The notes under the pieces: model-generated
What the model was told of the DNA's origin: nothing
The model's input: only the letters and a program-made list of their open reading frames with translations
Database searches by the model: none
IMG/VR virus record: IMGVR_UViG_3300043449_000440
Coordinates: 1-37,532 of that record
Direction: 5' to 3' (one strand)
Length of the DNA stretch: 37,532 nucleotides
DNA from: a virus
In this document: positions 53 to 37,532 of the stretch, piece by piece
Layout: each line of letters starts with the position of its first letter
Numbering within the stretch: the stretch's first letter is position 1
Program-made: the position numbers and the translations under genes

Positions 53-127
53 GTGTGAGAGGGGGCGGGCGCTTTTTACCCGTAACCGTCAATCTTTATT
101 TTGCGGAGGATTATTACTGACTAACGC
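1..127. repeat. Left copy of exact 127-bp terminal direct repeat
   Basis: Every base from 1 to 127 recurs at 37406-37532. The repeat includes a G-rich stretch, a 16-bp palindrome and the 3' end of the first leftward gene, so it is a piece of ordinary genome read twice. This marks a circular or circularly permuted molecule of 37,405 bp. The length of exactly 127 is a common assembler k-mer size, which points to an assembly overlap and not a biological terminal repeat. Confidence 0.95.
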
Positions 128-295
128 GTCATTAATTTTATTAGCATTGACGCTCTGACAATACATGTCGAGCAAGTTTTTAAACCCGGCGCTTATGTCC
201 CCATTGCCCGCGTGCGCAAGTATTGCAGCTTCCGCGTCGGAAAGCTTGCGCAGGAAATGTCGCGTGCGAATTGAGGCTGGGCGTCCGGGCGGCAT
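89..295 (-). CDS. Small hypothetical protein, possibly DNA-binding
   Basis: I chose the ATG at 295 (68 aa, beginning MPPGRPASIRTRHFLRKL). An in-frame TTG at 334 would add 13 residues, but neither start has a Shine-Dalgarno site. The N-terminal half is rich in Arg and Lys and is followed by a compact helical segment (LSDAEAAIL...GNGDISAGFKNLL). This resembles short phage proteins of unknown function that have a helical core. The gene is divergent from the gene at 353. A possible promoter (TTGGCC-17-TAAAAT, 306-334) would start the transcript only a few bases before the ATG. A DNA-binding or regulatory role is my inference. Confidence 0.6.
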   Translation of the reverse strand: MPPGRPASIRTRHFLRKLSDAEAAILAHAGNGDISAGFKNLLDMYCQSVNANKINDALVSNNPPQNKD

Positions 296-619: not shown

Positions 620-721
620 CGCGGGCGTGATAGTCACGGTAGTCACGTAGTCATCCTTTCGCCTTTAGCGCCAGAGCAAGCGTAGTTATTTTTAACGCCT
701 GTCATCCTATAGATATTACTC

Positions 722-740
722 TTGTTTAGAATCTAAACAA
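722..740. promoter_or_regulatory. Perfect 19-bp palindrome, probable operator
   Basis: TTGTTTAGA and its exact reverse complement flank one central A. The odd length and AT-rich 9-bp arms are typical of a dimeric repressor site. It lies 165 bp upstream of the promoter at 905. I found no second copy by eye. Confidence 0.55.
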
Positions 741-795
741 ACAATGACTACAATTGCTGACAGTAGGCAAGAGGCTAGACGTGACGCGGCTTTTG

Positions 796-830
796 GCGTT
801 AGTCATCAGGCGCGCCAGAATGACTAACGC
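796..830. repeat. Inverted repeat with 11-bp perfect arms
   Basis: GCGTTAGTCAT (796-806) pairs with ATGACTAACGC (820-830) around a 13-base centre that itself contains the palindrome GGCGCGCC. Each arm includes one copy of the TAGTCAT motif of this region. The 12-mer TGACTAACGCGT that begins in the right arm also occurs at 118-129. There is no T-tract on either side, so it is not a terminator. Confidence 0.6.
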
Positions 831-904
831 GTGACTACGATCGCTGACAAATAATACAAAAACGACAACCCAGAAAAAATTTTTACCAGCACATAAAAAA
901 ATGT

Positions 905-934
905 TTGACAGAATAAAAGATTCTCTGCTAGGAT
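905..934 (+). promoter_or_regulatory. Strong sigma70-type early promoter with extended -10
   Basis: TTGACA (905-910), an 18-base spacer and TAGGAT (929-934), preceded by an extended -10 TG at 926-927. Transcription should begin near 941 and serve the genes from 978 to 2702. The block AAAAATGTTTGACA at this -35 recurs exactly at the -35 of the leftward promoter near 10375. Confidence 0.75.
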
Positions 935-959
935 ATAGACTGCAGTACCGATTCAAATA

Positions 960-976
960 AAAAACGAAAGGGAAAA
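960..976 (+). repeat. Repeated translation leader, copy 1
   Basis: A 17-base leader made of A5, CGAAAGGG and A4 lies directly before the ATG at 978. The same 17 bases recur at 1227-1243 before the next gene. It contains the ribosome-binding purines GAAAGGGA. Confidence 0.6.
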
Positions 977-977
977 C

Positions 978-2851: not shown

Positions 2852-5195
2852 ATGCCTTGACTAGCTTGACGGCCGATGGCGCGGGCACCGATTCGACCAT
2901 CGCTCGGAGTTCTGTTTTCGGCCGCGTCGCTAACTCTGGCGCGCAAAATATATGCTTTTTGGTAGTGTATTCGCGTGACATTAACCGCCCGCAATCTATC
3001 CAGCCCGCCTCCCGTAACGCATGCATCAATGCAACCTGCGGGATTTTCGCGCCCATTGGGGCCGCCCCAGCTAAGCGATCGCAAAGCGCGTAAAAGGGCG
3101 ATGCAATCACACCCGAGGCGAATTCACCCAGCCGGCTGGCAATCAATTCGACCAGGTAGGATTCGGCCGTCGATCGCCCTTGATCGATCATGATTGCCTT
3201 GGCTTCCGTCATTGGCGGCGCGGCGCCAGGGTTAAATGACGACACGTCTCGAGTGCGCAAGTAAGCCGCAACGGCCAGCATGCCGCCATTGCCGCCATTG
3301 CCGCCATTGCCGCGATACCAGCCCCACAAAGCCTGCGCGTCGGCCTCTGGCAGACGGCCAGCGTCTGACCAAAGGCAAAACCATCGCCGGTCATCCGACG
3401 GAATTGAAATTGCCGCACGCTCGTTCGTAAACGCGATGACGAGCACACGATTCAGCGCCGAATACGGGTGCATGCCTTTGCGGTGAACGGCCAGATACTC
3501 AGGCGGTGCCGCAATGATGGGTTTGAGGCTGTTCTCAAGCGCGCGACGGTCTTTGGCCTCGGATTGCCGCAATTCCGCTATTTCCATGACCTCACACTCA
3601 AGCGCGTAGCCCCACTGCGACGACAAATCCTCGTTCCTGACCAGTGAACAATTGGTCTTTGAGTCGCCGCCAATAGCCCAGAAAAAGGGCGCCAGCATCG
3701 TATCTTTGCCGCTTCCAGGGTAGCCGCCAATCAGCACCGCGTGATTGATCTTGCGGTTCGGGTGCTGGATCTTGTAAGCCAAAACATTCAAGAAATGCTC
3801 GCGCTCGAAGTCGGTCGGGATCATGCGTTGGACGTGATCTAGCCAGGGTTTAACGCTTGCCGCATCGATTGAATTTGCCGCAATAGCCGGCCTTGCGTCG
3901 CGCCAGCGGTTGCCGTAAGGCATGCCGTCCCGAGCGACGATCAGATCCTCGCCGGCCGCGTAGGTGACGCCGACCAAGGTCTTCGCACCCATCGCTTGCC
4001 GGTTCTGGTCATACGCGACTGACGCCTCTACCTTGCGCGCTGAGTGAATCGACGTGCAATCGATATGCCGGAACAACGCATTGAAGGTCGAGCGGGCGAT
4101 CTCTCTGCGGTCTTGCAGGTCGAAATAGCAGTCATCCGTCTGAATGTATGCGAACCGCTCAAACCAGCCGGCCTTCTCCAGCCGCCCGAGTTCCTTGCGC
4201 TCGATCTCAGCCAGCACCGCCTCGGGCGTCTCGGTAAACATCTCAGCCGCCGCTTCGGGGTTTAATTTTTCCAATGCCGCGCTCATCGTGCTCGCGATCA
4301 GCTCGTCCCGTACGCCCGGCTCATGCTTGGGGCCACCCTGGAGCGCCACCCAGCTCAAGAACGTCGCCGAGTCCAGCTCCAGGCAGTGCGAGTGCAGGCA
4401 GCAGTACGCGCGCGCGGACGGGTTGTAGCGGCCTTCTGGGTTGCCGTCTGTATGCTCGGCGCTATTGGGACAGACGACGCCGGCCCAGCCCTCGGGGTTG
4501 GGGCGGCGCAGGATCAGCCCTTGGTCATTTAGCCACTTGAAGACATCGTCGCCGCCGTCGTCGCGGATTCTGATCGGTGCCGGGCCAAGGCCAGCCGAGG
4601 CGTCTGGCGTGACCTCCAGCTTGGCGCAGATGGCTTCAAGGGTATATTCCTGCTCTGGGTTGAACTCAATCAGCTTGGCTTTGAAGCCGTTCTTGCCGGG
4701 TTTTAGGTTGACACTACCCGGCAGGCGGAAGTTGCGCACCGGGTTGCAGGCGCCGGGGTCGGTGTAGCCAGCAGCCGCGATCGCTTTGATTGCCGCTGCG
4801 AAGTCGGCCTTGGTTGGCTGCTCGGAGAACGCGTAGCCCCATTGGAATGATCCCGGCGACGTCTCCATGATCCACGTCGGTGCCAGCGGCGGCAGTTTCG
4901 GAGCCTTCTGTGGGTCGCCCACATCGTCCAGCACCATGACTAGCACGTACTCGCAGTTGGCTGCGCTGGCGCTGGGCTTCTCTCCGAAGCGATCCATGAT
5001 GAAGCTTGCCGTATTGCCGTACCAAGCCTCGCCGTCCTTGCGCTTGTGACCGGGCATGAACGCCGGCCATGTAGCCTTGATCGCTCCATCGGCGTGAAAT
5101 TGCAGCTCGCCGTTTTTCTTCATCGGTGTCTGACGCACAAACAGCGCCGTCTCGCCCTCTGGTGCCAGATTTGCGATATACTCAAAAAAGTCCAT
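2850..5195 (-). CDS. Primase-helicase: RepB-like primase, zinc site and P-loop helicase
   Basis: The N-terminal third resembles RepB/AEP-type primases: a VLDDVG acidic motif at residues 88-93, ETSPGSFQWGY at 111-121, and a conserved NFRLPGSVNLK at 155-165. A Cys/His-rich segment (C242, C265, C266, H268, H270, C271) probably binds zinc. The C-terminal half is a helicase-like ATPase with Walker A GGYPGSGKDT (490-499) and a probable Walker B VMEIAEL. It probably primes and unwinds DNA for the family A polymerase encoded upstream. The start at 5195 has AAGGGA in front. A triple 9-bp repeat at 3282-3308 encodes Gly-Gly-Asn units between helicase and C-terminal segment. Length 781 aa; the gene appears intact. 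Confidence 0.85.
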   Translation of the reverse strand: MDFFEYIANLAPEGETALFVRQTPMKKNGELQFHADGAIKATWPAFMPGHKRKDGEAWYGNTASFIMDRFGEKPSASAANCEYVLVMVLDDVGDPQKAPKLPPLAPTWIMETSPGSFQWGYAFSEQPTKADFAAAIKAIAAAGYTDPGACNPVRNFRLPGSVNLKPGKNGFKAKLIEFNPEQEYTLEAICAKLEVTPDASAGLGPAPIRIRDDGGDDVFKWLNDQGLILRRPNPEGWAGVVCPNSAEHTDGNPEGRYNPSARAYCCLHSHCLELDSATFLSWVALQGGPKHEPGVRDELIASTMSAALEKLNPEAAAEMFTETPEAVLAEIERKELGRLEKAGWFERFAYIQTDDCYFDLQDRREIARSTFNALFRHIDCTSIHSARKVEASVAYDQNRQAMGAKTLVGVTYAAGEDLIVARDGMPYGNRWRDARPAIAANSIDAASVKPWLDHVQRMIPTDFEREHFLNVLAYKIQHPNRKINHAVLIGGYPGSGKDTMLAPFFWAIGGDSKTNCSLVRNEDLSSQWGYALECEVMEIAELRQSEAKDRRALENSLKPIIAAPPEYLAVHRKGMHPYSALNRVLVIAFTNERAAISIPSDDRRWFCLWSDAGRLPEADAQALWGWYRGNGGNGGNGGMLAVAAYLRTRDVSSFNPGAAPPMTEAKAIMIDQGRSTAESYLVELIASRLGEFASGVIASPFYALCDRLAGAAPMGAKIPQVALMHALREAGWIDCGRLMSREYTTKKHIFCAPELATRPKTELRAMVESVPAPSAVKLVKA
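3282..3308. repeat. Triple 9-bp tandem repeat inside the primase-helicase
   Basis: Three exact copies of GCCGCCATT on the plus strand, followed by five bases of a fourth. It is in frame and encodes (Gly-Gly-Asn)3 around residue 635. In-frame copy-number change would alter only the length of a flexible linker. Confidence 0.8.
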
Positions 5196-5215: not shown

Positions 5216-5242
5216 AAAGCCGCCCTGCCAGGCGGCTTTTTT
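5216..5242. terminator. GC-rich hairpin with T-tract between HNH and primase genes
   Basis: AAAGCCGCC (5216-5224) pairs with GGCGGCTTT (5231-5239) around a 6-base loop. The plus strand follows it with TTTTTT; the minus strand, the direction of the operon, follows it with only TTTCTC. It is thus a good terminator for stray rightward transcription and a weaker attenuator ahead of the primase. Confidence 0.6.
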
Positions 5243-5723
5243 ATTGTGTAAAAAACGCCGTTATCGCGGTCTCCCGCGCTTGCGCGGCTATTTTTGGGCT
5301 GTCGTACGCGCCCAAATGCGTTTTTTTACCGTCTTTATTTATGTATGCAACCCACGTACCGCGACGAGGATCATATGATACCCCGGTATGCCCGCTACTA
5401 TTATTGCGGCGCAGCGAGCCATTTAAACCATTTAAAGATTGCCCAACGTCGCGTAAATTTTTTATCTGGTTATTGCTTCTACAACGATCTATGTGATCGA
5501 TATTTTTTTGCGGCCAGACTTTAAAACAGTAAAACCACGCCAAACGATGCGCAAAGTATTTTACGCCGTCGATGCTTATTTTTGTATACCCACTACTATC
5601 CGTATGCCCTGCAATTTCTCTACGTTTGGCTTTTCCGGTTGAAACTTTCCAATAGAATAATCCAGATCGACGATCATAGCGCACAACTTCGCGCATACGT
5701 CTATAAGTGAGTGAAAGTGTCAT
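5241..5723 (-). CDS. HNH homing-type endonuclease with AP2 DNA-binding domain
   Basis: The core HRLAWFYCFKVWPQ..IDHID..R.NN.I.NLRDV (about residues 58-93) is the HNH nuclease motif of free-standing phage homing enzymes. The C-terminal part SGHTGVSYDPRRGTWVAYI..GKKTHLGAYDSPKIAAQAR is an AP2-like DNA-binding domain. It should nick or cut DNA at a recognised site and promote its own spread. The start overlaps the polymerase stop as ATGA, so it was inserted directly behind the polymerase gene, a common refuge for such genes. The 60-base line at 5461 is about 37% GC, lower than its neighbours. All key His and Asn residues are present, so it is probably active. Confidence 0.88.
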   Translation of the reverse strand: MTLSLTYRRMREVVRYDRRSGLFYWKVSTGKAKRREIAGHTDSSGYTKISIDGVKYFAHRLAWFYCFKVWPQKNIDHIDRCRSNNQIKNLRDVGQSLNGLNGSLRRNNSSGHTGVSYDPRRGTWVAYINKDGKKTHLGAYDSPKIAAQARETAITAFFTQ

Positions 5724-7687
5724 TTTGAGAAACGCTCCATTATGTCGCCTTCAACTTCTAAAGGAAGCCCTCTAGCCCAATCCGGCGGCGTAGTCATTAT
5801 TTCAGTCATTCTACGCCTAACATCGTCCGCATCGCAAGCTAAACATTCAACTATTATTTCATCATGCACTGAGCCGATAACTTTAATTCCTTCAGCGTCT
5901 AGTCTGCGCAATGAATGCCGTAGAAGACAGTTCGCACTAGCTTGGACTAAATTTTCAATTAACACGCCAAACCACAACCGCGCGCGAGGCCACTCTGTAT
6001 CGGATGCGGCAGGCTTCCATGCTGCTTTTGCGTATGAGATGCTACCGTCATCTTCAAAACGCACTTGTGGATAGCACAACACACGCCCAGACGGCAGCGC
6101 GTACCAGAGATGCTCACCTCGGCGCATGTATGTAACCTTACCAGCTGTAAATTCTCTTTCTGGGTTTCGCATCGCGCGCATTGCAGCGTCTTCAAGCTCT
6201 CGCCAGAACACGACTGCCCACGGATTTGCCTTGCGCCACAAGTTAACCATGCGCTTCGCTTCGTGTTCGGGTAGCGTCACGCCGTAGATACGACCCATTG
6301 ACGCAAACGCACCTACTGACCCGCCAAATCCGCAAGCAAGGACTGCCACCTTACCTAGCATTCTGTCTGCTTTGGTTATGTCAGACTCGGTTTTTCCGAA
6401 CATTAATGCAGCAGTGCTGACGTAAATATCTTTACCCGCTCGAAATATGTCCAGCGTATTTTCTGCTGCCGTTGCCCCACTACACCAAGGCGTCATACGC
6501 GCTTCAATTCCCGACCAATCTAACGCAATCAGCTTGTGATTTTTGGGCGCCATGATGGCGGGGCGAAGCATCCCTTTAAGAACGTCCGTCACTCGTTTTC
6601 CAAAACGAGGAACAATTTCATGATTGCGTACTAACGCGTGCCGCACTGCCTCTGGGTTGTCTGCGCAGATGCGGCTCATGTTTTGCAGTTGCGCCCCTGT
6701 GCTGCTATACCGACCTGTCGCGCTGCCGCCGGCGAATATAAACGCGCCGCGCAAACGGCAATCTTCTTCATCAGCTAAGTTAGCTAAACGCGAAAATTTA
6801 GCCACTGAAGATGAAAACATATTGTCTGCGGCCTGCACTACGTTTGCCACTACAGCGGGCACTTCGTCAGCATTTTCCTCCGCAAAATTGAGCAACGCTA
6901 AACGCGCATTTTTGTCTAGGCTCTTTTTTGCTTCGCCATCTTTATACGTTTGCATCAGCTTCTTTGCCTCATCGCCGACGTTATTCCACACCCATTCACG
7001 CAGGCGCGGCGACCGCACGCTAGTAACCATACCTTTGGTTAGCGCAACCACTTCACTTTCAGTTTCTTTTACTTCCTGCGAAGCATATTTCGCCGCCGCG
7101 CGGCATAACGATACGTCCACTAGCAAACCACGGTCGTTAATGCGCTCGTTTGTGTGATAGTCGGCCAGCTCATCAGCTGATAGATCGCGCATGGCCTTGG
7201 AGATCGCCCGCATGGCGCGCACGTCCTGCTCGCAGTAGGCGATCATCTCGGCCATTAAAGATGGATCACTGTTGAAACTGCCATCCGCACGTGGAATGGA
7301 TAGTGCTCGTATGAGCTGACTTCCTCGGTGGTCTTTGCGCATGACGCTGCTGATTGCGCGTCCGACGTCTTCAAGGCCGCCAGGTAGGCAGTTCGCACGC
7401 GCTTGTGCAGCGGTGCAGTAGAACTGTTCGAGTTGAAAGTTACATTGTAGGACGTACCAGAAGATAAGACGTTCGAATGTCGCGTTGTGGGCGCGTATTT
7501 GCCCGGTATGCTTTCGCACTGCGTCTGGAAAAGGCTGGTCGGGAGTCCATGTGACAACGTCATCGTCGTCAAACGCGTAGGACATACATAAAACATCTGT
7601 GCTTCCGTCTTGTGCATAGTTGTAGACCCCTTTAGACGTAAGGTCGCATCGAGAGCGCGTCTCGAAATCAATCCAGAGAATTTTCAC
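5720..7687 (-). CDS. Family A DNA polymerase with 3'-5' exonuclease
   Basis: Replicative polymerase of 655 aa. The exonuclease domain has DFET (residues 7-10), HNATFE (67-72) and Y151-x3-D155, so proofreading should be active. The polymerase domain has TGRYSS (324-329), motif A DWSGIEAR (390-397), motif B R442...K446...L450...F454 and motif C VHDE (607-610). There is no 5' nuclease domain, as is usual in phages. The O-helix position equivalent to E. coli Phe762 is Leu450, a variant discussed for phage lifestyle. The start is GTG in a GTGA overlap with the methyltransferase stop. No insertion disrupts it. Confidence 0.95.
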   Translation of the reverse strand: MKILWIDFETRSRCDLTSKGVYNYAQDGSTDVLCMSYAFDDDDVVTWTPDQPFPDAVRKHTGQIRAHNATFERLIFWYVLQCNFQLEQFYCTAAQARANCLPGGLEDVGRAISSVMRKDHRGSQLIRALSIPRADGSFNSDPSLMAEMIAYCEQDVRAMRAISKAMRDLSADELADYHTNERINDRGLLVDVSLCRAAAKYASQEVKETESEVVALTKGMVTSVRSPRLREWVWNNVGDEAKKLMQTYKDGEAKKSLDKNARLALLNFAEENADEVPAVVANVVQAADNMFSSSVAKFSRLANLADEEDCRLRGAFIFAGGSATGRYSSTGAQLQNMSRICADNPEAVRHALVRNHEIVPRFGKRVTDVLKGMLRPAIMAPKNHKLIALDWSGIEARMTPWCSGATAAENTLDIFRAGKDIYVSTAALMFGKTESDITKADRMLGKVAVLACGFGGSVGAFASMGRIYGVTLPEHEAKRMVNLWRKANPWAVVFWRELEDAAMRAMRNPEREFTAGKVTYMRRGEHLWYALPSGRVLCYPQVRFEDDGSISYAKAAWKPAASDTEWPRARLWFGVLIENLVQASANCLLRHSLRRLDAEGIKVIGSVHDEIIVECLACDADDVRRRMTEIMTTPPDWARGLPLEVEGDIMERFSK

Positions 7688-8377: not shown

Positions 8378-9001
8378 TTAGGCCGAACGACGACGGCGTG
8401 CTGGTGCCGCCTCTTCTTTACCCTCTTCTGCTTCTTCAGTCTGGCCATCCATTGACGCCCAGTCTTGAATCTCAAAGACTGGCGTGTAGATTTTGCCGTA
8501 GGACTTGTGCTGGTAGCTGTCCTTTTTCAAGGATACGACTGGCACAGGCTTGCCCGGCGTTGTCTCGCACTGACCGGCAATTGCCACGCCCAGTGTGTTG
8601 ACAGCGCGCTTGCCGCCCACTGAAGTTGTCGTGTAGCGCACTTCCAGACCCTTATCAGGGCCTGATAGGCATTTCAGCGACATGCCCACTTGTACTTCCC
8701 AGCCTTTCTTCGCGCCATGCGGTACTGGCGGCAATTCAGGCTTGGGCTCGGTGACCGGCACCATCATCTCACCCAATACGTCACCGTCGCCCCACGCGAT
8801 ATAGCCGTGGATGAACGAGAACGGATTGACTGCCCAAGTCGAATCAGACTCGACTTCGGTTTGCTCGGCGCCATAGATCCAATGGCCGCCCTTGTCCATC
8901 TTGAGAATGACGGAGCCAACAGCACCGACGTCTTTCTCAAGCGTACGCAGAGCAACAGACAGAGAAGAAACAGGGGGGAGATTTGCAATAGCGAATGACA
9001 T
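8378..9001 (-). CDS. Probable single-stranded DNA-binding protein
   Basis: The 207-aa protein has a beta-rich body with aromatic residues (GGHWIYG, PFSFIHGYIAWGDG, KIYTPVFEIQDW) and a charged C-terminal tail of Glu followed by Arg. I base the assignment on its place between a recombination nuclease and the polymerase, where phages of this type carry a conserved protein proposed to bind ssDNA, and on its general make-up. The classic acidic SSB tip is missing; the end is RRRRSA. The start ATG 9001 has AAGGA at a good distance. The function is moderately supported. Confidence 0.6.
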   Translation of the reverse strand: MSFAIANLPPVSSLSVALRTLEKDVGAVGSVILKMDKGGHWIYGAEQTEVESDSTWAVNPFSFIHGYIAWGDGDVLGEMMVPVTEPKPELPPVPHGAKKGWEVQVGMSLKCLSGPDKGLEVRYTTTSVGGKRAVNTLGVAIAGQCETTPGKPVPVVSLKKDSYQHKSYGKIYTPVFEIQDWASMDGQTEEAEEGKEEAAPARRRRSA

Positions 9002-31164: not shown

Positions 31165-32067
31165 TTAACTGACGTTGCCAGAAACAACGCAGACTGTGCC
31201 GCTAATAAACAGAATAGTCGCAACGCCCCTAGTTGCAAGCGTCATCGTGTCCTTGTCCGTGTTTGTTCCTGCAATGTAAGCCGTGGTAATTGAACAAGTG
31301 ACGGTAATGTTGCCTGTGGTGTTATTAAACAGCGATATAACGTCACCAGCAGCAAATGTGTTGTTTGGAATCGTGATTGATCCGCTAGTACCAACGCCAA
31401 CAAATTTGCCAACATCTGTCGTGAGCAATGAATATGAAGTTGTTTTGTCTGATCCAGATTGCGGGATGTTTCTGTAACCAACAGAGTTCGTGCCATCAGC
31501 AGTACAGTTAGTTAGTGTTCCAGAACTAGGAGTACCCAAAGCGCCGCTAGGGGCTACATAGTCAGTTCCAGCAGTCGCGGCGGTAAACGCCGAGGTGCCG
31601 TTGCCTTTCAACACGCCAGTCAAAGTTGTCGCGCCCGTACCACCATTAGCTACTGGCAGCGTGCCAGTCACCTGGCTGGCTAGATTGACGGTGCCGGCTA
31701 TAGTTTTTAGGTTGCCGTTGGTGTCGAACGTACCGTCTGTCGTCCAGGTATCGCCCACAGCCAAAGTAACCTTAGCTAATGTGCGCTGCGTAGCGTTGTT
31801 ATCGTACTTGACAAACACCGTCACAGCGGCCGTGTCGCCGTTGTAGATGGTAAGGTCTTTAATGACGCGACGATTGCTACCTGTCGGGGCGGGAACGACT
31901 GTGACATCAGTTGAGCCATTTAACGCGCCATCCGTTGCGCCCTCAGTAATGCCAGAGCCTGCATTGTCAGCATAGGTCGCAACGAATGTCGGGTTAGTTG
32001 TGGCCGCCGATGTGGACATGGCCACTTGCAAGCTAATGGCTGTCCCATCTAAAACTAAAGTCTTCAT
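31165..32067 (-). CDS. Tail fibre protein, 300 aa
   Basis: Beta-rich and Thr/Gly-rich. The N-terminal half is MKTLVLDGTAISLQVAMSTS and later RRVIKDLTIYNGDTAAVTVFV. The middle LPVANGGTGATTLTGVLKGNGTSA is a common phage fibre repeat. The C-terminal beta domain GKFVGVGTSGSITIPNNTFAAGD may be the knob. It sits between the collagen-like and glycine-rich genes, making a fibre module. AGAGG precedes ATG 32067. Confidence 0.82.
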   Translation of the reverse strand: MKTLVLDGTAISLQVAMSTSAATTNPTFVATYADNAGSGITEGATDGALNGSTDVTVVPAPTGSNRRVIKDLTIYNGDTAAVTVFVKYDNNATQRTLAKVTLAVGDTWTTDGTFDTNGNLKTIAGTVNLASQVTGTLPVANGGTGATTLTGVLKGNGTSAFTAATAGTDYVAPSGALGTPSSGTLTNCTADGTNSVGYRNIPQSGSDKTTSYSLLTTDVGKFVGVGTSGSITIPNNTFAAGDVISLFNNTTGNITVTCSITTAYIAGTNTDKDTMTLATRGVATILFISGTVCVVSGNVS

Positions 32068-37405: not shown

Positions 37406-37532
37406 GGGGGCTGGGGGCGGAAGGCTGGGGGATGGGACGGTATTCTGAATTCAGAATGTGTGAGAGGGGGCGGGCGCTTTTTACCCGTAACCGTCAATCT
37501 TTATTTTGCGGAGGATTATTACTGACTAACGC
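37406..37532. repeat. Right copy of exact 127-bp terminal direct repeat
   Basis: Identical to 1-127. Joining the two copies places the small leftward gene (stop at 89) about 290 bp from the start of the terminase small subunit, which makes one continuous intergenic region. No gene ends prematurely at either edge once the copies are merged. Confidence 0.95.

Follow-up and report, generated by a model that had tools for sequence, protein, structure and literature searches.

A candidate iteron origin whose repeat sequence changes together with the wing tip of a primase-helicase among related phages

The alpha protein of P4 unites a primase, a helicase and a C-terminal winged helix binding the origin repeats in one protein (PMC4234260). 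The Rep initiator helicase of SaPIs recognises the origin iterons via its C-terminal domain (PMC7581432), and in several E. coli PICIs two sets of iterons, with sequences given, flank an AT-rich region (PMC6092414). Cch2 of SCCmec, a system with AAGTG iterons, is described as a D5-type self-loading helicase with a C-terminal domain that binds direct repeats (PMC7581432). In the PLE of Vibrio cholerae, origin and DNA-binding domain of the initiator co-vary and the specificity was swapped repeatedly; the origin-directed nuclease Odn was proposed as selective force (PMC8263062). The RepA_N initiators of PLE are without predicted helicase or primase (PMC7145576). An iteron origin with a primase-helicase initiator is a known kind of system, and PLE provide a precedent for an origin and an initiator that co-vary. 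Searches of the open-access literature found no description of iterons in comparable primase-helicase systems of phages.

The window analysed here is an IMG/VR virus record of 37,532 nucleotides. Its first 127 bases are identical to the last 127 (1-127 and 37406-37532), and it is a complete virus contig. The direct terminal repeat contains a G-rich stretch, GGGGGCTGGGGGCGG, and could reflect true ends or an assembly overlap from a circular map. Terminase- and portal-like genes are present, together with genes for a PolA-type polymerase (5720-7687), a methyltransferase and a primase-helicase. In the interval between polymerase and primase, an ORF of 160 amino acids on the minus strand (5241-5723) has, by eye, the look of an HNH homing endonuclease with an AP2-like end; it is present in just 4 of the tested related loci. 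A metagenome-assembled genome (MAG) of Rhodoferax sp. includes a phage contig of this group (L141). The binning with Rhodoferax, unreliable as binning is for viral contigs, and the freshwater origin of the metagenomes suggest a betaproteobacterial host.

An earlier note on this DNA had pointed to a repeat cluster in the gap 620-977, and all its elements are present: seven exact copies of TAGTCAY, starting at 631, 640, 648 and 800 on the plus strand and at 744, 820 and 831 on the minus strand, lie within 207 bp (631-837), accompanied by the direct blocks TGACTACAATTGCTGACA and TGACTACGATCGCTGACA (745-762 and 832-849), an 11-bp inverted repeat, GCGTTAGTCAT and ATGACTAACGC (796-806 and 820-830), a palindrome and AT-rich DNA (Table 1). 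The entire window holds 13 TAGTCAY, seven of them in the gap; shuffled sequences had 5.0 ± 2.05 and never reached 13. The count of the top hexamer in the gap exceeded that of all 100 shuffles. With a genome average of 48 % AT, the stretches 846-920 and 700-745 reach 73 % and 74 %, and the richest 50-bp segment of the former, at 875 (78 %), ties for the genome maximum. The GC skew, after removal of the coding-strand effect, was uninformative for the origin; its range was within that of block permutations (17.5 %) and its minimum was located at 31258.

Table 1. Features of the candidate origin region and of the primase-helicase gene in the window
Feature	Position	Strand	Remarks
68-aa gene, divergent, bordering the candidate origin in relatives; locus marker	89-295	-	
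Putative iteron block A: TAGTCAC, TAGTCAC, TAGTCAT (631, 640, 648)	631-654	+	8-9 bp steps; block (0, 8-9, 16-18) in relatives, all motif classes
Perfect 19-bp palindrome TTGTTTAGAATCTAAACAA	722-740	.	Within AT-rich core 700-745
Putative iteron block B: single exact inverted copy; relatives usually two	744-750	-	
Putative iteron C: direct copy, one arm of the 11-bp inverted repeat	800-806	+	
Putative iteron block D: inverted copies 820-826 and 831-837	820-837	-	
AT-rich block, candidate unwinding element (function inferred)	846-920	.	
Promoter-like TTGACA-N18-TAGGAT, ahead of early gene 978-1220	905-934	+	Consensus match only
Primase-helicase, 781 aa, proposed initiator: RepB_primase, DUF5906 helicase, C-terminal winged helix	2850-5195	-	Pfam above cut-offs; covariation; models
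Predicted C-terminal winged-helix domain, residues 676-769	2889-3170	-	AlphaFold2 models, winged-helix matches
Predicted wing tip, residues 739-746 (MSREYTTK), co-varying with iteron sequence	2958-2981	-	

Three queries gave the related loci: the primase, for which 80 of 553 loci were retained, the product of 978-1220 (15 loci) and an aligned set of 89-295 products (42 loci). Forty-six distinct loci, including the window, in which the 89-295 gene adjoins the same gap, formed the comparison set. A scan of the relatives for TAGTCA revealed clusters in L018, L031 and L033 alone. The conclusion that most relatives lack an array was wrong, because they have other motifs: a search for any over-represented hexamer found 4 to 10 copies of a short motif in the corresponding gap of 45 of the 46 loci, with a top hexamer count above all 100 shuffles in 39. 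Only L040 was without a clear array; those of L020, L119 and L131 are weak. The motif is TGACTA in the window and elsewhere TGACCA, TGACCCA, TTGCCCTCA, TTGCCCGCA, TTGCCTACA, TTGCCGACA, TGACGTGCA, TTGTCCACA and also TTGCCCACA. The plan of the array is kept across these classes with about nine copies in steps of about 9 bp (>>> << > <<<): three direct sites in 8-9 bp steps, an AT-rich core of some 100-130 bp, two inverted sites, about 44 bp, one direct site, about 21-26 bp and three inverted sites. Loci L043 (TTGCCCTCA) and L044 (TGACGTGCA) have equal site offsets (0, 9, 18, 120, 170, 196, 208, 217) and alignable spacers. Between L121 and L122 the spacers are nearly equal, but one locus has mostly TTGCCCACA and the other mostly TGACCCACA, with some copies of the other's site type left in each; thus sites are also altered individually at a fixed position. 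The earlier note's reading as a candidate origin is strongly supported by iterons beside AT-rich DNA in a position and layout kept in relatives. Its expectation of a motif conserved in close relatives was not borne out, since L019-L021 have other motifs; this does not refute the origin, because the arrays persist and the motif co-varies with the proposed initiator.

Some arrays have additional elements. In the L049-L097 clade (L072, L092, L057, L079 and others) a second array of 6-9 copies of GTTAGTG/CACTAAC, often in closely spaced inverted pairs, adjoins the iteron array; the window has none. These copies are possibly operators of another regulator. In L072 and L092, a lone TGTGGGTCA-TGTGGGCAA pair, belonging to other iteron classes, lies several hundred bp past the main array, and the main array of L092 contains three tandem sites of unlike types: TGTGGGTCA, TGTGGGCAA and TGTGGACTA.

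The sequence of the motif is tracked by the primase-helicase. Over its whole alignment, mutual information with the motif peaks at column 739. Among 69 close pairs, those with different motifs have unlike residues at 739 in 96 % of cases, those with the same motif in 0 %. After permutation of the motif labels within clades, the value observed for residues 739-746 was reached in 0 of 5000 cases, and in no permutation did any window of the protein attain it; residues 750-781 co-vary as well, more weakly. The primases of L029 and L027 are 98 % identical and their motifs differ: seven of the 16 differing sites fall within 738-746 (738, 739, 740, 741, 743, 744, 746). As controls, the products of 89-295, 2451-2702 and 8378-9001, the polymerase, TerS, TerL and the portal showed no association with the motif; of all proteins compared, the primase-helicase alone co-varies, at its predicted wing tip. 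The idea that TerS reads the array for packaging or partition was rejected on this ground (401/2000). On a tree calculated from primase residues 1-700 of 34 phages, with the wing left out, at least 16 motif changes are needed. Judged by covariation, the primase-helicase is the predicted specificity factor of the iterons.

Matches to Pfam were obtained for DUF5906 (36.4 bits, cut-off 27.6) and, as a marginal pass, for RepB_primase (25.2 bits, cut-off 24.3). The phrog matches are DNA primases, and the sequence contains the Walker A motif GGYPGSGKDT, as in a helicase domain of the AAA+/SF3 type. No NCBIfam model matched at E 1 or less. The full-length AlphaFold model was poor (pLDDT 57), and of it the C-terminal part alone was used; a model of the C-terminal region had a modest confidence of 68 overall and 80-92 around the wing. 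In both models residues 739-746 form the loop that joins strands 733-738 and 747-751, behind helices 701-711 and 720-729, and are predicted to be the tip of the wing. VIA-align matched the model to winged helices among the solved structures, with Z of 6.3 at most, e.g., replication terminator protein, ArgR, PadR and RFX5; P4 alpha was absent among the structure matches listed. These matches support, at the level of models, the winged-helix fold only. Foldseek gave no match to the model at E 0.001 or less, and a sequence search of solved structures with the primase yielded only weak matches (E 0.23).

A simple correspondence relates wing and motif. Wings of the type MS.E.T occur with TGACTA, HS.E.Q with TGACCA, HS.D. 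with TGACCCA, HSREFA with TTGCCCACA or TGACCCACA, NT with TGACGTGCA, GT with TTGCCCGCA, AT or ST with TTGCCCTCA, GS or AS with TTGCCTACA and SS with TTGCCGACA. The pairings of H739 with the CCA type, of M739 with TGACTA and of T740 with CTCA, CGCA or TGCA have no mismatch in 34 phages; counted by independent pairs they stand at 8:0 (p 0.008), 2:0 and 4:0, and significance was attainable for H739 only. These rules were derived on the first set of 34 phages, therefore only the further loci, not all of them independent, count as a test. The further loci agree with the code. Wings of the type KS..D are mostly found with TTGTCCACA, the Rhodoferax contig among them, and AS wings mostly with TTGCCTACA or TTGCTTACA. 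Base 3 of the iteron is T in 32 of 33 loci with S740 and A or C in 11 of 11 with T740, first-set loci included; the table of the automatic 9-mer parse comprises 44 loci because the 8-bp classes (TGACTA, TGACCA) were missed. The code is incomplete. A739 is mostly accompanied by TAC, yet L052 and L077 have CCA-type sites; KS wings coincide with TGTGGGTCA or TGTGGGCAA in L005, L066 and L092; and L121 and L122 have one common wing yet favour different sites. The sequences imply that TGAC or TTGC, the remaining half of the iteron, is either tolerated or recognised by some other means. In the 50 %-identical GenBank phage MW202483 (L137) the wing is CFAPELS and the motif TGTAAAC, in 10 copies. Downstream of its primase, at about 3480-4020, are 10-15 copies of GTAAAC/TGTAAAC and CTACCAA repeats; this region, without such annotation in the record, is on its sequence likely to be the origin of that phage.

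Compared with the known systems, the primase-helicase resembles P4 alpha in having primase, helicase and a predicted C-terminal winged helix in one protein. It differs in the primase, a TOPRIM type in P4 alpha (PMC4234260) and a match to RepB_primase at the N-terminus here. Iteron sets on either side of AT-rich DNA are shared with SaPIs and other PICIs, but the SaPI origin lies directly downstream of rep, whereas here the candidate origin is 1.9 kb off the end of the primase gene, beside divergent early genes. In addition to its origin, P4 has crr, while a single array was found here. In contrast to the satellites, the window represents an entire phage that encodes a terminase, a portal and a PolA polymerase of its own. 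Cch2, unlike the phage system, has three 5-nt iterons and a separate polymerase/primase; covariation with a wing was not found described for it (PMC7581432). RepA_N of PLE is a different protein family, and swapping in PLE concerns whole modules, whereas here changes also occur site by site within one layout. By this comparison the primase-helicase would work like P4 alpha or SaPI Rep; three points keep it out of the P4 and SaPI families, namely the lack of a match to any curated P4-type model, a primase of another type and an origin that does not directly follow the gene.

Computation shows the presence of the array, the constancy of its layout among relatives, the repeated switching of its sequence, the wing-tip covariation and the domain make-up of the protein. 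On this basis, the gap 620-977 is very probably a replication origin of the iteron type, occupied by a primase-helicase that initiates replication, loads itself and works in the manner of P4 alpha or SaPI Rep, but with a specificity that is set by the wing and was switched repeatedly. We infer from this material origin activity together with binding, melting, loading and priming in the following course. The TAGTCA(C/T) copies would be iterons with a full unit of 8-9 bp similar to TGTAGTCA. The C-terminal winged helix of the primase-helicase would bind them, and wing-tip residues 739-746, chiefly 739 and 740, may help to read their bases. Seated in two groups flanking the AT-rich core, the protein would melt the AT-rich DNA, load itself as a helicase ring and then prime, before a hand-over to the phage PolA-type polymerase, which would extend.

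An array between divergent transcription units might instead be a transcriptional operator, occupied by the primase-helicase or another binder, for the early promoter 905-934 and the divergent genes, with replication starting elsewhere. A promoter-like sequence is indeed found at the array edge in the window and at the corresponding place in L018-L021. The protein that tracks the motif is, however, the primase-helicase and no regulator, origin binding is known for SaPI Rep, Cch2 and P4 alpha, its counterparts in function, and an AT-rich core with iterons on either side is the layout of satellite origins; a sole operator function is thus improbable, while an array serving as both operator and origin is possible. 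It is very unlikely that one of the small proteins encoded next to the array (89-295, 353-619 or 978-1220) uses it as operator or centromere, for example as a ribbon-helix-helix repressor on heptads, although the 89-295 gene adjoins the array in relatives, divergent from it, and the spacing is heptad-like. The earlier note had named these genes as possible sources of the binder, a proposal that found no support. Identical 89-295 products are found beside TGACCCA in L007 and beside TTGCCCTCA in L036 and L128, L022 and L029 likewise combine identical or near-identical products with different motifs, and the association with the motif was not significant (124/2000). The 89-295 product is not the specificity factor because identical copies accompany different motifs, and it was rejected on the same ground both as iteron binder and as a repressor setting the motif. 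For the 353-619 product (88 aa) the search of IMG/VR gave no relative, relatives of the 978-1220 product occur in 15 loci only, and both were dropped as binders; most relatives lack the two genes. The three small proteins had no family match, 89-295 none in Pfam at cut-off. An unrelated-looking gene of 84 amino acids occupies the spot of 353-619 in L031 and L033; this position is therefore an insertion spot for small genes.

Covariation could also arise by hitch-hiking, if recombination had moved the gap and the 3' end of the primase gene together and the two had no contact. The covariation of residues 750-781 would fit, as would switches such as L029/L027, where the gap background changed as well, which points to recombination. 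Against it argues the gene 2451-2702, located between gap and primase: it shows no covariation, and 13 pairs that differ in their motifs have identical copies of its product. Moreover, clades far apart combine the same wing residues with the same motif (M739 in the window and the 71 %-identical L033, NT in L044 and L119, KS in L003 and L141), and in L121, L122 and L119 the sites changed inside a conserved spacer background. Hitch-hiking has hardly any probability left beside direct recognition of the iterons by the primase-helicase.

For P4, no description was found of a wing tip co-varying with repeatedly switched iterons. What appears to be new, within the open-access literature searched, is that close phages have switched repeatedly while the layout stayed constant, and that the switches go with two or three residues of a wing. 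As a tentative view, to which we give slightly less than even chances, this large group of freshwater phages may repeatedly re-code its origin, with about nine iterons and two or three wing residues changing together, partly site by site, under a simple wing-to-base code; the likely drive would be escape from agents that attack or exploit the origin, be they satellites, origin-directed nucleases or sister phages competing within one cell. How an initiator and its many binding sites jointly change specificity is an old question, for which at least 16 natural switches in close phages are now at hand, with the residues that change traced to the tip of a single wing. The natural pairs of domain and iteron offer a ready set for the recognition code of winged helices, and they open a route to the origins of metagenomic phages with such a primase. 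The switching is also a hint of strong selection on phage origins, such as was proposed for the PLE satellites and Odn (PMC8263062).
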